From assembly GCA_001790955.1 (NCBI GenBank), contig MGDP01000202.1, forward strand, positions 1-39,807: 39,807 nt of DNA, given 5' to 3'. Each line of letters starts with the position of its first letter. Within the stretch, counting starts at the first letter, position 1. The notes below the pieces were generated by a model. The model did no database searches. It had not been told where the DNA came from and saw only the letters and a program-made list of their open reading frames with translations. This stretch comes from Candidatus Tectomicrobia bacterium RIFCSPLOWO2_12_FULL_69_37. GTDB lineage: Bacteria > UBA8248. Shown piece by piece: positions 8,454-37,827 of this stretch. Both the position numbers and the translations under genes were made by a program.

Positions 8454-9233
8454 CTAGATGTTGAGCCAGGGCGTGACAAGGATGTACTTCACGTTGAGGA
8501 AGATCCGCAGCACCATCTTGGCCACGAGCCCCATCATCGTCACGAAGAGGAAGCTCTTGATGGCGAAGCGGACGACCCCCACGTTCACCAGCGCCTTGCG
8601 CTTCCAGACGTACCAGGCCGGGATAGCGGCGTACCACGCCAGGATGCACGCCGCCCCCACGGCCGCCTGGGCCCAGTAGCCCCGGAAGCCCAGCAGGTAG
8701 GGCAGGTCCACGTTCGTCAGGGCGACCACCTTGTGGGGGTCCCACTCCTCCCAGGGCATGAAGAAGTTCCAGCCCGGGCCCCGCAGGAAGGTGCCCTGGA
8801 TGACGAGCCAGACCCAGAGAACCAGGAAGCCGAACTGGAAGGTGAGGATGGCGAAGCGCCGCTCGCCGAAGGTGTAGTAACCGTTCCCCTTGGGGTTCAC
8901 GTCGATGAAGGGGATGGCCATCAGCCCGATGATGATGAAAGTGGGGAGCACCACGCCCGCCATCCACGGGTCGAAGTAGACCAGCATCTCCTGGAGACCC
9001 AGGAAGTACCAGGGCGCCTTCGAGGGGTTCGGCGTCGCCGAGGGGTTGGCGGGCTCCTCCAGCGGCGCGTCCACCAGGATGGACCACGCCGTGAGCATGA
9101 TCGTCACGATGATCGCGCACATGAACTCCAGGCGCGTCAGGTAGGGCCAGACGTGGACCTTGTCGTTCACCCGCTCCCAGCTGGTGCGGGGGAGATCCTC
9201 GGAGGTGCCGACGATCTTGTCTTCTCTCGCCAC
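8454..9233 (-). CDS. Cytochrome b C-terminal / subunit IV-like protein with extra C-terminal TM helices
   Basis: APWYFLGLQEMLVYFDPWMAGVVLPTFIIIGLMAIPFIDVNPKGNGYYTFGERRFAI resembles the cytochrome b C-terminal domain/PetD; at 259 aa it is longer than b6f subunit IV (about 160 aa). Confidence 0.88.
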   Translation of the reverse strand: MAREDKIVGTSEDLPRTSWERVNDKVHVWPYLTRLEFMCAIIVTIMLTAWSILVDAPLEEPANPSATPNPSKAPWYFLGLQEMLVYFDPWMAGVVLPTFIIIGLMAIPFIDVNPKGNGYYTFGERRFAILTFQFGFLVLWVWLVIQGTFLRGPGWNFFMPWEEWDPHKVVALTNVDLPYLLGFRGYWAQAAVGAACILAWYAAIPAWYVWKRKALVNVGVVRFAIKSFLFVTMMGLVAKMVLRIFLNVKYILVTPWLNI

Positions 9234-9264
9234 TTCTTCACTCTCCCGAGACGGTCCCCGGGGC

Positions 9265-10053
9265 CTAGAGCGGCCCCGAAATACCCCCGTCCTTCCGGAT
9301 GCGCCAGAAGTGCACCATCATCAGGACCGAGGCGATCAAGGGGATCACGATGCAGTGGAGCACGTAGAACCGCAGCAGCGTGGGCGGACCGACGATGGTG
9401 CCCCCCAGCAGGGCGGAGCGGGCGTCGAAGCGGGGCGTCACCCCCACCATCTCGGCGAAGGGCCCCTCGTGGCCGAGCAGGGGCGTTGCCCGGGCCATGT
9501 TGGTCCCCACCGTGACCGCCCAGATGGAGAGCTGGTCCCAGGGGAGGAGGTAGCCCGTGAAGCTGAGCAGCAGGGTCAAGGTGAGCAGCATCACGCCGAT
9601 CACCCAGTTGAACTCCCGCGGGGGCTTGTAGGAGCCCGTCATGAACACCCGCATCATGTGCAGCCAGACGGCGATGACCATGGCGTGGGCAGCCCAGCGG
9701 TGCATGTTCCGCATGAACATGCCGAAGGGAGCGTCGAACTCGAGGTACTTCATGTCGGCGTAGGCGTACTCGCCCACCGGCCTGTAGTAGAACATGAGGA
9801 TGACGCCCGTCACCGTCAGATAAAGGAACAGCAGGAAGGTGATGCCGCCCATGCACCAGGTGAAGCGGATCCGGATGGCGTGGCGGCGGATCTTGGTCGG
9901 GTGCAGATGGAGCCAGAGGTTGTCCACCACCATGAGGACCCGGTTGCGCGGGGTGTCCTCGTAGCCGTGGCGGAACATGGATCGCCACACTTGCGAATCC
10001 AAGATGTTGCGCTTCATCTGCTCCAGGCTGAAGCGCTCCTTGAGGCTCGGCAT
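9265..10053 (-). CDS. Cytochrome b6-like (cytochrome b N-terminal) subunit
   Basis: His ligand pairs MHRW...WLHM and [18 protein letters not shown] (14-residue spacing as in cytochrome b6), [21 protein letters not shown]; Cys in FTWCMGGIT matching the b6 heme-cn Cys. Confidence 0.94.
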
Positions 10054-10110
10054 CCGAATCCTCCGTCGTCCGGGGCTCGCCCCCGAATCAAGGCGTCAGG
10101 CCAAAGCGGC

Positions 10111-10668
10111 TCAGATGTTGAGGAAGGCGTCCGAGCTGGACCACTCCCCCTTCTCCTGGCGGAAGGATTTGCCCTTGTCGATCAGCAGCTGGCCGTCATC
10201 GGCCAGCGCGATTCTCACCCGCTCGAGGGGCCGCGGCGCGGGGCCCTCGAAGTTGACGCCGGTGCGCCGGAACCCGCTGCCGTGGCAGGGGCACTTGAAC
10301 TTGTTCTCGGTGGCGAGCCAGGCGGGGGTGCAGCCCAGGTGGGTGCAGATGGCGGAGAGAGCGTAGAAACCGTTCTCCTCCCGTATGATCCACACCCGCT
10401 GGGAGGCCACGAAGCGCGTGTCCACGGCCCCCACCGCGTAATCCGCCGGGAGGCCCGCCTTGAACTGCGTGGGAGGCTCGAAGAGCACCCGGGGGAAGAG
10501 GAACCGCAGGAAGCCCAGCAGGCTGACGGCGAGGCTCCCCAGGATCCCGAGCCAGCCGGTGTAGTTGAGGAAGCGCCGGCGGTCCATCCCCTGGGGCTGC
10601 CGCTGGGTTTCGGCCTCGTACTCCGCGGGCAGCTTGACGTTCGGGGCCTTCAATCTCGTGGGACTCAT
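10111..10668 (-). CDS. Rieske 2Fe-2S protein of a cytochrome bc-type complex
   Basis: CTHLGC...CPCHGSGF Rieske box and N-terminal TM. Start set to MSPTRLKAPN at 10668 (SD GAGGAGAGC) rather than the longer track ORF start at 10764. Confidence 0.93.
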   Translation of the reverse strand: MSPTRLKAPNVKLPAEYEAETQRQPQGMDRRRFLNYTGWLGILGSLAVSLLGFLRFLFPRVLFEPPTQFKAGLPADYAVGAVDTRFVASQRVWIIREENGFYALSAICTHLGCTPAWLATENKFKCPCHGSGFRRTGVNFEGPAPRPLERVRIALADDGQLLIDKGKSFRQEKGEWSSSDAFLNI

Positions 10669-10873
10669 GCTCTCCTCAAAATGATCACGTCCGGCCGGAG
10701 GGCGGCCCGCCGCCCCCGCGCCCGGAGAACCGCATCCCGGAGGGCGCTCTCTCCTGGCGGCCATCCCCCGCCCCTCCGCGGGCGGCGGACGGGAGAAGGT
10801 CAGGCCAGGATCGACGGCCCTGGCTGCAACGGCCCCTTGTGCTTTCTGTTCTTACGGCCACCCAGGGGGCCTG

Positions 10874-32292: not shown

Positions 32293-32334
32293 GAAGAAGC
32301 GGGGGGCGGTCCGCCGCCCCCCGCTTCTTCTTTC
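32293..32334 (+). terminator. Strong hairpin terminator between convergent etfA and XRE-S24 genes
   Basis: Perfect 17-bp stem GAAGAAGCGGGGGGCGG (32293-32309) / CCGCCCCCCGCTTCTTC (32314-32330), 4-nt loop TCCG, followed by TTTC. Confidence 0.8.
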
Positions 32335-33052
32335 AGACGAAGGGCTGGTAGGCCCAGACCACCCGGCCCACGATGCGCTCCTCGGGATCCTCGTCCGGAA
32401 GGTCCAGGTGAGTGACCGGCTCCTCCCGGTTCTCGGGGATGAGCCAGAGGCGGGGGGGGGTCCACTGGAGCCGCTTGAGGGTGCAGCCGCCCGCCTCGTC
32501 GCGGACGGCGTAGATGCCCTCGGGCTTGATGGCCTTGTCCTTGCGGTCGATGGCCACGACGGCCCCGGGCTGGATGAGGGGGAGCATGCTGCGCCCCATC
32601 TCCCGGCTCACCCGGACGGCCACCAGGTCCTTTCGCCGGCCGATTTGGGAGACGTGGATGAGGGCGTACTCCTCGATCGCCTCCTCCACGATGCGGCTCT
32701 TGCCGGCGGCGATGGCGCCTGCGACCAGAGGGACGGCCCGGAAGTCGGGGTCCGCCACCCGCCCCGGGCCCTGGACGCCGTCCGCCACCCGGACCGCCAC
32801 GTCGAGGGGGCGCGGCTCCTCCCGCTCGGGGGCCCCCCGCCGGCCCAGGAGCCAGTCCACTGTCACCCCGAGGACATCTGCGATGCGCAGGAGCCTCCCC
32901 GCGCCGGGCTCGTTCTTGCCCTCCTCGTAGCGGACGAGGTTGGCCCAGGAGATTCCCGCCCGCCGGGCCAGTTGATTGGGGTTCAGGCCCCGCCGCTTGC
33001 GGGCCTCGGCGATTCTCTTCCCCATCTGCTTGGAGTCGGAGGGCTTGGCCAT
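32333..33052 (-). CDS. XRE-family regulator with C-terminal S24 (LexA/CI-like) peptidase domain
   Basis: HTH MGKRIAEARKRRGLNPNQLARRAGISWANLVRYEEGKNEPGAGRLLRIADVLGV; S24 part with AGAIAAG, GRSMLPLIQPGAVVAIDR (Ser) and GGCTLKRLQW (Lys). Confidence 0.88.
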   Translation of the reverse strand: MAKPSDSKQMGKRIAEARKRRGLNPNQLARRAGISWANLVRYEEGKNEPGAGRLLRIADVLGVTVDWLLGRRGAPEREEPRPLDVAVRVADGVQGPGRVADPDFRAVPLVAGAIAAGKSRIVEEAIEEYALIHVSQIGRRKDLVAVRVSREMGRSMLPLIQPGAVVAIDRKDKAIKPEGIYAVRDEAGGCTLKRLQWTPPRLWLIPENREEPVTHLDLPDEDPEERIVGRVVWAYQPFV

Positions 33053-35299: not shown

Positions 35300-36703
35300 G
35301 TGGAATTCCCCTACTATCCCCTCAACGACTTCGGCCCCGCCATGAAGGGGATGGTGATCGGGGGGCTCGGCATCTTCCACGTCTTCCTCGCCCAGTTCGC
35401 CATCGGGGGCGGGATGCTCATGTGCTACTTCCAGTGGCTCTCCCAGACGGGGCGGGAGCCCGCCGCCCGGGAGGCCCTGGACGGCTACTTCAAGTTCCTC
35501 GTCCTTGTGAGCTTCGTGGCGGGCGCCCTGACCGGGGTAGCGATGTGGTTCACCACCATTCAGATCAGCCCGCGCACCATCGGGATGATGGTGGAGGAGT
35601 TCCACTGGATCTGGGCGACCGAGTGGACCTTTTTCTGCCTGGAGGTGGCGGCGGGCTACGCCTACTACCGCTGCGGCGGGGGGCTCGCCGACCGCGCCCG
35701 CATGACCCTGCTCGCCCTCTACTCCCTGGCGGCCTGGTTCAGCCTCTTCTGGATCAACGGCATCCTCTCCTGGCAACTCACCCCCGGGGGGTGGACACCC
35801 GCCGGCAGCGTGTGGGCGGGCTTCTTCAACCCGAGCTTCTGGCCCTCCCTCTTCTACCGGACCTTCGCCGCGATGAGCATCGCCGCCCTGGTCGCCTGCG
35901 TGGTGGTGAACGCCCATCCTCGGCTTAGCCTGGGGGAGCGCGACGCCCTCATCCACCGGGCGGCCCACTTCCTCATCCCGATGGCGCTCATGCCCGTCCT
36001 GGGGCTGTGGTACCTCTACGCCATCCCGCCCGACAGCCGGGCCTGGGCTCTCGGGGGGAGCGCCGCCATGACCCTCTTCACCGGGGTGGCGGCGGGAGCC
36101 TCCCTCTTCGTGGGGCTCTACGCCCTGATCGGCCTGAACCTCCAGCGCGTCACCATCAACGGGGCGACGGCCACCCTCCTCTGCGGCCTGGCCTTCGTGG
36201 CCACGGGGGGCGGAGAGTTCGTCCGCGAGGGGGTGCGGAAGCCCTACACCGTCCGGGGCGCCCTCTTCTCCAACTCCATCGCACCCTCCGAGGTCGCCGA
36301 GCTGCGGCGCGTGGGCTCGGTGACCCGCGACCCCTACCCCCTCCGCCATCCGCAGGCCTATCCGAACGACCAGGTGCGGCTCGGGGCCAAGGTCTTCCGC
36401 TTCCTGTGCGGCGTCTGCCACACGATGGACGGGGCGAACGGCCTGGTGCATCTCGCGGGAACCTGGACCCTCGAGCAGCTGCGCCTGAACATCGCCAAGC
36501 TCCAGCTCACCAAGCCCTTCATGCCCCCTTTCGCCGGGACGGCGGACGAGCTGGAAGCCCTCGTCCAGCTTATCTCCTGGACCCGGGCTGGGCGCCCTGA
36601 GGATTGGCCCCTCTCGAACGAGGTTCCCACCATCGTCCAGATCGACCGATGGCTCCAGGAGGCGGGGATTCACCCGGCCTCCCAGCGGGAGGGGAAGCGG
36701 TGA
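35300..36703 (+). CDS. Cytochrome bd-type oxidase subunit I (CydA-like) with fused C-terminal cytochrome c domain
   Basis: CydA-like helices (GIFHVFLAQFAIGGGM; GEFVREGVRKPY resembling the GRQPW-region ExxR), then FLCGVCHTMDGANGL ... LTKPFMPPFAG (heme c CXXCH and distal Met). Confidence 0.85.
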   Translation: MEFPYYPLNDFGPAMKGMVIGGLGIFHVFLAQFAIGGGMLMCYFQWLSQTGREPAAREALDGYFKFLVLVSFVAGALTGVAMWFTTIQISPRTIGMMVEEFHWIWATEWTFFCLEVAAGYAYYRCGGGLADRARMTLLALYSLAAWFSLFWINGILSWQLTPGGWTPAGSVWAGFFNPSFWPSLFYRTFAAMSIAALVACVVVNAHPRLSLGERDALIHRAAHFLIPMALMPVLGLWYLYAIPPDSRAWALGGSAAMTLFTGVAAGASLFVGLYALIGLNLQRVTINGATATLLCGLAFVATGGGEFVREGVRKPYTVRGALFSNSIAPSEVAELRRVGSVTRDPYPLRHPQAYPNDQVRLGAKVFRFLCGVCHTMDGANGLVHLAGTWTLEQLRLNIAKLQLTKPFMPPFAGTADELEALVQLISWTRAGRPEDWPLSNEVPTIVQIDRWLQEAGIHPASQREGKR

Positions 36704-37827
36704 GCGCCCCCTTCCCGTTGGGCTTCCCTGCGCCGACCGCCTTCTACCTCTCCTTCTACGTCCTCACCCTGCTCATCCACGTCATGTTCATGAGCTACGT
36801 TCTGGCGGGGACGGGATACCTGGTGGCCGTCCATTTCCTCCCCGGCGGCTTCGCCGGCTCCCGCCACCGGGCGCCCCTGGCCGAGATCCTGCGGGACTGG
36901 ATGCCCTTCGCCCTGAGCGGGGCCATCACGGCGGGGGTGGCGCCGCTCCTCTTCGTCCAGATCCTCTACCAGCGGGCCTTCTACACGGCGAACATCCTGC
37001 TCTTCCACAGGTGGATGGCCATCCTCCCCGTCCTCATCGCGGGCTTCTACCTGCTCTACCTCCTCAAGATCCGCTGGGTCACCGAGGGCCCCCCGGCGCG
37101 GGGAGGCTTCATCGCCCTCGCCGCCTGGCTCTGCTTCGGCTTCACCGGCTACTCCTGGACGGAGAACCACCTGCTGAGCCTCCAGCCCGCGGCCTGGCCC
37201 GTCTTCTTCGGCGCGGACTCCCTCTTCTTCTGGACCGGGGCCCTTCTCCCCCGCCTCGGGCTGTGGGCCGCGGGGACCATTCCCGTGATGGCGCTCCTCC
37301 TGGGATGGCAGTTCCGCCTCACCTACGAAGGCACTCCCTACGTTCCCCCCTATGAGATCCGCCGCCTGGCGCTCGTCGCCCTGGCGGGCCTTCTCCTGAG
37401 CGCCCTCGCGGGAGTGGGATACGGCTCCTTCCTCTCGCCCGCCGCCCGGGAGTTCGTCCAGGGGGCGGCGGGCGAGCCCTACCTCGGCCTCGCCCTGATC
37501 GGCTGGCTGATCCAGGCCGCGATCTGGCTCACCGTCTGGAAGAGGGCCTCCCTCCGGCCCGGGCTCCTCGGGGCGGCCTCGCTGGGGGCTTTTCTCTCGG
37601 TGCTGGGGATGACGGTGCTGCGCGAGGGGGTGCGGATCACCTCCCTGCCCGCCGGGCGCCTCTACGCGCTTCACGAGCGGGCGTCCCAGGTGGGGGGCCT
37701 GCCAGTCTTCCTCTTCTTCCTCGTCCTGAACGCCGCCCTCGTGGGCTGGTGCATCGTCCTGGCGCGAAAGGCGAAATCCTCCCCCGGGCCGGGGGAGGAT
37801 CTGCGGGACCTGCTGGACCGGCGGTGA
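36700..37827 (+). CDS. Second integral-membrane subunit of the noncanonical bd-type oxidase (CydA-like/CydB-position)
   Basis: GTG start overlapping the upstream TGA (GTGA at 36700-36703); 375 aa with many hydrophobic helices (FYLSFYVLTLLIHVMFMSYVLAGTGYLV...); cotranscribed position. Confidence 0.75.
   Translation: MSAPFPLGFPAPTAFYLSFYVLTLLIHVMFMSYVLAGTGYLVAVHFLPGGFAGSRHRAPLAEILRDWMPFALSGAITAGVAPLLFVQILYQRAFYTANILLFHRWMAILPVLIAGFYLLYLLKIRWVTEGPPARGGFIALAAWLCFGFTGYSWTENHLLSLQPAAWPVFFGADSLFFWTGALLPRLGLWAAGTIPVMALLLGWQFRLTYEGTPYVPPYEIRRLALVALAGLLLSALAGVGYGSFLSPAAREFVQGAAGEPYLGLALIGWLIQAAIWLTVWKRASLRPGLLGAASLGAFLSVLGMTVLREGVRITSLPAGRLYALHERASQVGGLPVFLFFLVLNAALVGWCIVLARKAKSSPGPGEDLRDLLDRR

Follow-up and report, generated by a model that had tools for sequence, protein, structure and literature searches.

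Cytochrome bd oxidases are known mostly from quinol-oxidising CydAB enzymes, several of which are drug targets. One family apart from these, OR-C, was reportedly defined by Murali, Gennis and Hemp in 2021 through a CydA-type subunit that bears heme c and through the lack of a quinol site. PMC13189123 and PMC10839748 name OR-C and OR-N as bd families next to qOR, the quinol-oxidising one; OR-C is also named in PMC11707229. In E. coli bd-II, heme b558 is ligated by His186 and Met393, b595 by Glu445 and heme d by His19 (PMC8585947). No paper on the biochemistry of OR-C was found in the literature searched, nor any measured activity, heme spectrum or electron donor for the clade described here.

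In this paper we analyse a gene pair, A and B, in a 39,807-nucleotide stretch of DNA (the window) from a metagenome-assembled genome (MAG) of Candidatus Tectomicrobia (3.3 Mb; 91.6% complete). An earlier note, made from the sequence of the window, had read the pair as a noncanonical bd-type oxidase, with a heme c domain fused to it and a divergent second subunit, whose heme content and electron donor may differ from the usual ones. Both open reading frames and their GTGA coupling are present where the note placed them (Table 1). We consider it probable that A and a CydA'-like B, both of CydA type, together form a cytochrome-c-oxidising O2 reductase of the bd superfamily and of the OR-C kind.

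Table 1. Features of the A-B gene pair, in positions of the window.
Feature	Position	Strand	Description	Basis
Subunit A ORF	35300..36703	+	467 aa; GTG start; GGAG 9 nt upstream	
Subunit A	35300..36703	+	CydA superfamily; 8 predicted TM helices and C-terminal cytochrome c domain	hhalign, AlphaFold, Foldseek
A His27, TM1	35378..35380	+	aligned with His19 of E. coli CydA, which ligates heme d (PMC8585947); 56/56	hhalign
A Glu108 and Glu115, TM3	35621..35644	+	aligned with E. coli E99 and E107; 56/56 each	hhalign
A Tyr186-Arg187	35855..35860	+	Tyr/Phe at the position of b558 ligand His186, then a family-specific invariant Arg	
A E306-F-V-R309-E310-G-V-R313	36215..36238	+	b595-site motif; E310 aligned with E. 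coli E445, R313 with R448; E306 replaces W441	
Class-I cytochrome c domain	36362..36589	+	CGVCH at 36407-36421; distal Met408 at 36521-36523	Pfam, profile match
GTGA	36700..36703	+	stop/start overlap, A-B coupling	sequence
Subunit B ORF	36700..37827	+	375 aa; GTG start; polytopic partner of A	
Subunit B	36700..37827	+	CydA-type paralogue	hhalign to A family, AlphaFold
B His27, TM1	36778..36780	+	aligned with A His27; found in 50/50 clade members and in all sister-clade partners covering the position	
B His157, end of TM4	37168..37170	+	window clade 45/50, sister clades 0/24; possible heme ligand	
B R308-E309-G-V-R312, end of TM8	37621..37635	+	in register with A R309-E310-G-V-R313	hhalign

The closest relatives are groundwater MAGs of Candidatus Tectomicrobia (L002, at 94% identity) and two genomes of the same genus. 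The two genes are kept together in Planctomycetota, Myxococcota, Tectomicrobia, one Verrucomicrobiota MAG and others, with identities in A of 57-71% (one as low as 49%) among these carriers of the window clade. In metagenomes the clade is often met with among Planctomycetota and Myxococcota. Sister clades in Desulfobacterota and Geobacteraceae have the same pairing at about 30% identity.

As a single sequence, subunit A has no PF01654 match at E<=1, and neither A nor B reaches the cut-off of any NCBIfam family, so automatic annotation can miss the clade, and its respiratory potential is probably under-called. PF01654 is matched directly by 15 of 34 relatives of A, and hhalign aligns the A family with canonical CydA over 301 columns (probability 96.8, E 2.3e-10; reversed-profile controls below 1%). 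Direct sequence searches of the PDB with A or B returned no matches, and the A profile found cytochrome c domains there and no bd structure, so that a comparison of folds was needed. The AlphaFold model of A (pLDDT 89.5, pTM 0.85) has eight TM helices followed by the C-terminal domain, and its top 20 Foldseek matches in the PDB are all bd oxidase subunits (20/20), the best being 9r2g_A, the CydA of M. smegmatis qOR-2 (E 4.9e-7, TM-score 0.69 by target). By profile and by predicted fold, subunit A is a cytochrome bd superfamily protein.

Conservation in A was counted in an alignment of 56 family members. H27, E108, E115, R187, E306, R309, R313, C370, C373, H374 and M408 are present in 56/56 and E310 in 55/56, in agreement with the first description of a CydA-like membrane part with its His in GIFHVFLAQF (H27) and its ExxR in FVREGVRKPY (E310/R313). 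The region of the b558 ligand, FVHTVASGY (E. coli 184-192), had been matched by eye to LFYRTFAAM, and hhalign gives the same alignment, free of gaps, in which H186 becomes Y186. Tyr stands at this position in 14 family members, Phe in 41 and Gly in one (n=56), and His is absent from it both in the A family (n=56) and in all other heme-c rows. M393 of E. coli falls on A264, a position held by Ala, Ser, Gly or Thr across the family; with H186 and M393 both replaced, the heme b558 site is without either ligand. The E. coli quinol loop (K252/E257) lies in an alignment gap, and the TM6-TM7 spacing in the model of A is 13 residues where E. coli has that loop. Two invariants of the A family have no canonical counterpart, R187 beside the lost His and E306 instead of W441. 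The noncanonical anatomy proposed in the earlier note thus stands, as a bd fold with a conserved heme c domain that has lost both b558 ligands and the quinol loop, rather than a CydA in which all standard ligands and the loop are present.

The active-site set and the heme c are also kept in the sister clades, and the features of A just described are shared by all heme-c relatives with an intact active site. Three proteins of the host's own family (L092, L093 and L094; 590-690 aa) keep a CxxCH motif, but the TM1 His, the two TM3 Glu and the ExxR are gone from them; from these residues they look like non-catalytic derivatives or proteins of a different function.

After TM8 the membrane part runs, as first described, into a mono-heme cytochrome c domain, in which CGVCH (C370-GVC-H374) and the distal Met in PFMPPF (Met408) are found in 56/56. 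PF13442 (Cytochrome_CBB3) is matched by 34/34 aligned family members, the A profile matches cytochrome c6 structures, and the fused heme c is invariant in the more than 80 members examined. The positive-inside rule, applied with four residues of padding on the loops, predicts a periplasmic N-terminus and a periplasmic heme c domain in 56/56. Longer relatives occur at L061, L064, L066, L068, L075, L077, L080 and L084, where CydA-like ORFs, 848-887 aa long and each with eight CxxCH motifs, consist of the bd membrane part, one heme c and then a cytochrome c7/MtrC-like multiheme tail; several of these ORFs have a B-type gene upstream.

With its quinol-handling parts lost and a cytochrome c domain of its own, the pair probably draws the electrons for O2 reduction from cytochrome c, a change of donor that we infer from the sequence. 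An archaeal CydAA' without a quinol site reportedly still oxidised quinol, so a missing quinol site is no proof of such a change. If the quinol site has moved, into B or to where A and B meet, quinol bound there could reduce the heme c or the active-site hemes, and the pair would then be a quinol oxidase after all, as canonical bd enzymes are. Quinone pockets beyond the Q-loop site are present in E. coli CydB and near CydX (PMC13189123), and B has clade-specific conserved polar residues; but the Q-loop and the b558 ligands are absent and the invariant fused heme c would be superfluous in a pure quinol oxidase, and we regard quinol oxidation by the pair as improbable.

The partner gene had been described as divergent and as not reading like ordinary CydB, and the profile comparisons sharpen this to homology with the first subunit. 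By hhalign the B family matches the A family (probability 93-94, E 1.6e-7), and so do its subsets alone, the window-clade partners at 88% and the Desulfobacterota partners at 91%, against 7.5-10% for CydB and 3% or less for canonical CydA or the OR-N-like group; all reversed-profile controls for B were below 3%, and those for its match to the A family below 1%. On these profiles subunit B is of CydA type and paralogous to A, the subunit with heme c, and its identification as CydB is rejected. The AlphaFold model of B (pLDDT 88.2) has CydA 5doq_A as its best PDB match (TM-score 0.64) with CydB chains nearly as good, so that in the model fold alone cannot tell CydA-type from CydB. If B were a very divergent CydB, the complex would be an ordinary CydAB to which a heme c tail is added. 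This reading would agree with the gene order, which is the same as in cydAB, and with the match of the B model to the CydB structure 9r2g_D (TM-score 0.63/0.70). It is very improbable in the face of the profile values (88-94% with A) and of the TM1 His and RExxR that B keeps in register with A.

Subunit B is without the TM3 glutamates, and a second O2 site in it is therefore unlikely. Heme is typically ligated by His, and the b595 of canonical CydA has a Glu ligand. In the window clade His157 of B is joined by E309 (46/47, as against 1/23 in the sister clades) and by Arg104 (49/50), whereas the sister-clade partners have mostly Met, Leu or Phe at 157, Asp, Ser, Ala or Gln at 309 and Phe, Tyr or Trp at 104. 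Since the conserved His157 and Glu309 are both of residue types that ligate heme, an extra heme in B is possible, and this clade-specific His and Glu, as a candidate extra-heme site, may be a new point. That B is in fact a heme-binding CydA', with a TM1 His and ExxR taken from a CydA ancestor and a clade-specific H157 acting with E309 and R104, we hold to be doubtful. If true, one oxidase would contain two heme-carrying CydA-type subunits together with heme c, B might hold a bis-liganded b heme or there might be a second path for electrons, and the heme layout would be unlike that of any solved bd enzyme.

The A-B unit stands by itself; its neighbours in the window are a divergent LVIVD-repeat gene and a convergent short-chain dehydrogenase gene. 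No conserved neighbour or recurrent cytochrome c donor was found among 43 flanking genes with 62 Pfam families, none of which occurs in more than 3 loci. A LexA/CI-like repressor with HTH_3 and Peptidase_S24 domains is encoded at 32333-33052 (minus strand), and at 8454-10764 (minus strand) there is a Rieske gene with a split cytochrome b, its N- and C-terminal halves being separate genes, as in a b6f-like bc complex. The host genome, at its 91.6% completeness, has no canonical cydA or PF01654 gene; it has heme-copper oxidases, cytochrome c assembly and maturation genes and bc-type cytochrome b genes. Given the bc-type cytochrome b, the Rieske protein, cytochrome c maturation and the heme-copper oxidases, a pool of reduced periplasmic cytochrome c is plausible in this host.

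In the mechanism that we propose, electrons would pass from a bc-type complex to a periplasmic c-type cytochrome and from there to the fused heme c of A, which would stand in for quinol and heme b558. The fused heme c would in turn feed a b595/d-like (or all-b) di-heme centre in A, and O2 would be reduced at this retained di-heme site. Such an enzyme would be electrogenic and could act as an additional, probably high-affinity, oxidase alongside the heme-copper oxidases of the host. The presence of those oxidases also fits a main role outside respiration, in the removal of O2, NO or peroxide or in cytochrome c linked peroxide reduction; the Desulfobacterota sister clades occur in mostly anaerobic sulfate reducers, and canonical bd enzymes detoxify too (reviewed in PMC10839748). 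We think such a role hardly probable, as A keeps the full set for proton and O2 chemistry (the equivalents of E99, E107 and E445) and many carriers come from groups that include aerobes.

Two trees were built, a quick one of 80 CydA-type rows and a careful one of 60 rows. Placement in such a tree had been suggested as a check, and in the 80-row tree all heme-c rows form one branch (SH-aLRT 99), apart from canonical CydA and from a heme-c-less group. The window clade is a single group in both trees (99 in the 80-row tree, 100/100 in the 60-row tree). The quick tree had made transfer from Planctomycetota to the host seem likely; this reading was dropped, as the careful tree does not resolve where the host falls within the clade. 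The heme-c-less group resembles bd-like oxidases with 14 TM helices that PMC3578206 describes; such oxidases now go by the name OR-N. Directly upstream of a heme-c-less OR-N-like CydA gene, and overlapping or abutting it, a 445-aa protein is encoded at L117:14-1348 and L119:2319-3653; the copy at L117 is a radical SAM protein that has SPASM and PCP_red domains and may modify heme or protein for the OR-N-like oxidase.

If the proposed electron path is true, a cytochrome-c-fed bd enzyme without b558 would, inside a single fold, set O2 chemistry apart from quinol chemistry and reveal which parts make up the irreducible core. The value of the present analysis lies in its clear residue-level description, in the finding that the second subunit is homologous to the first, and in an extra-heme idea that can be tested.

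Compared with canonical qOR CydAB (E. coli bd-I), subunit A shares the fold and has the equivalents of H19, E99, E107, E445 and R448; it differs in being without H186, M393, W441 and the Q-loop, in its invariant R187 and E306 and added cytochrome c domain, and in having a partner that is not CydB. OR-N CydAA' of Nitrospira/Nitrospinota is like the A-B pair in having no quinol site, a CydA-type paralogue as proposed partner and a likely cytochrome c donor (PMC10839748). The OR-N-like proteins compared here (A5) differ in their length of 568-670 aa, lack a heme c motif and form a separate branch, and the OR-N subunit has 14 TM helices and no heme c where A has 8 and a heme c. Closer in design are the heme-c CydA-like clades of Desulfobacterota (L060-L081), which share the ligand set, the heme c domain and a B-type partner, and are unlike A in being about 30% identical to it, in having mostly 3 or 8 CxxCH motifs, and in partners with Met or another residue at 157 and Asp, Ser or Ala at 309. 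That heme-c-containing bd clades had been described and were mostly uncharacterised was said at the outset, and the pair indeed falls in no well-studied clade; it is a member of a kind already known from genome surveys and hardly studied biochemically. On its sequence features and the reported definition of the family, the best reading files the A-B pair under the published OR-C kind, with which it shares a heme c domain on a CydA-type subunit that has no quinol site.
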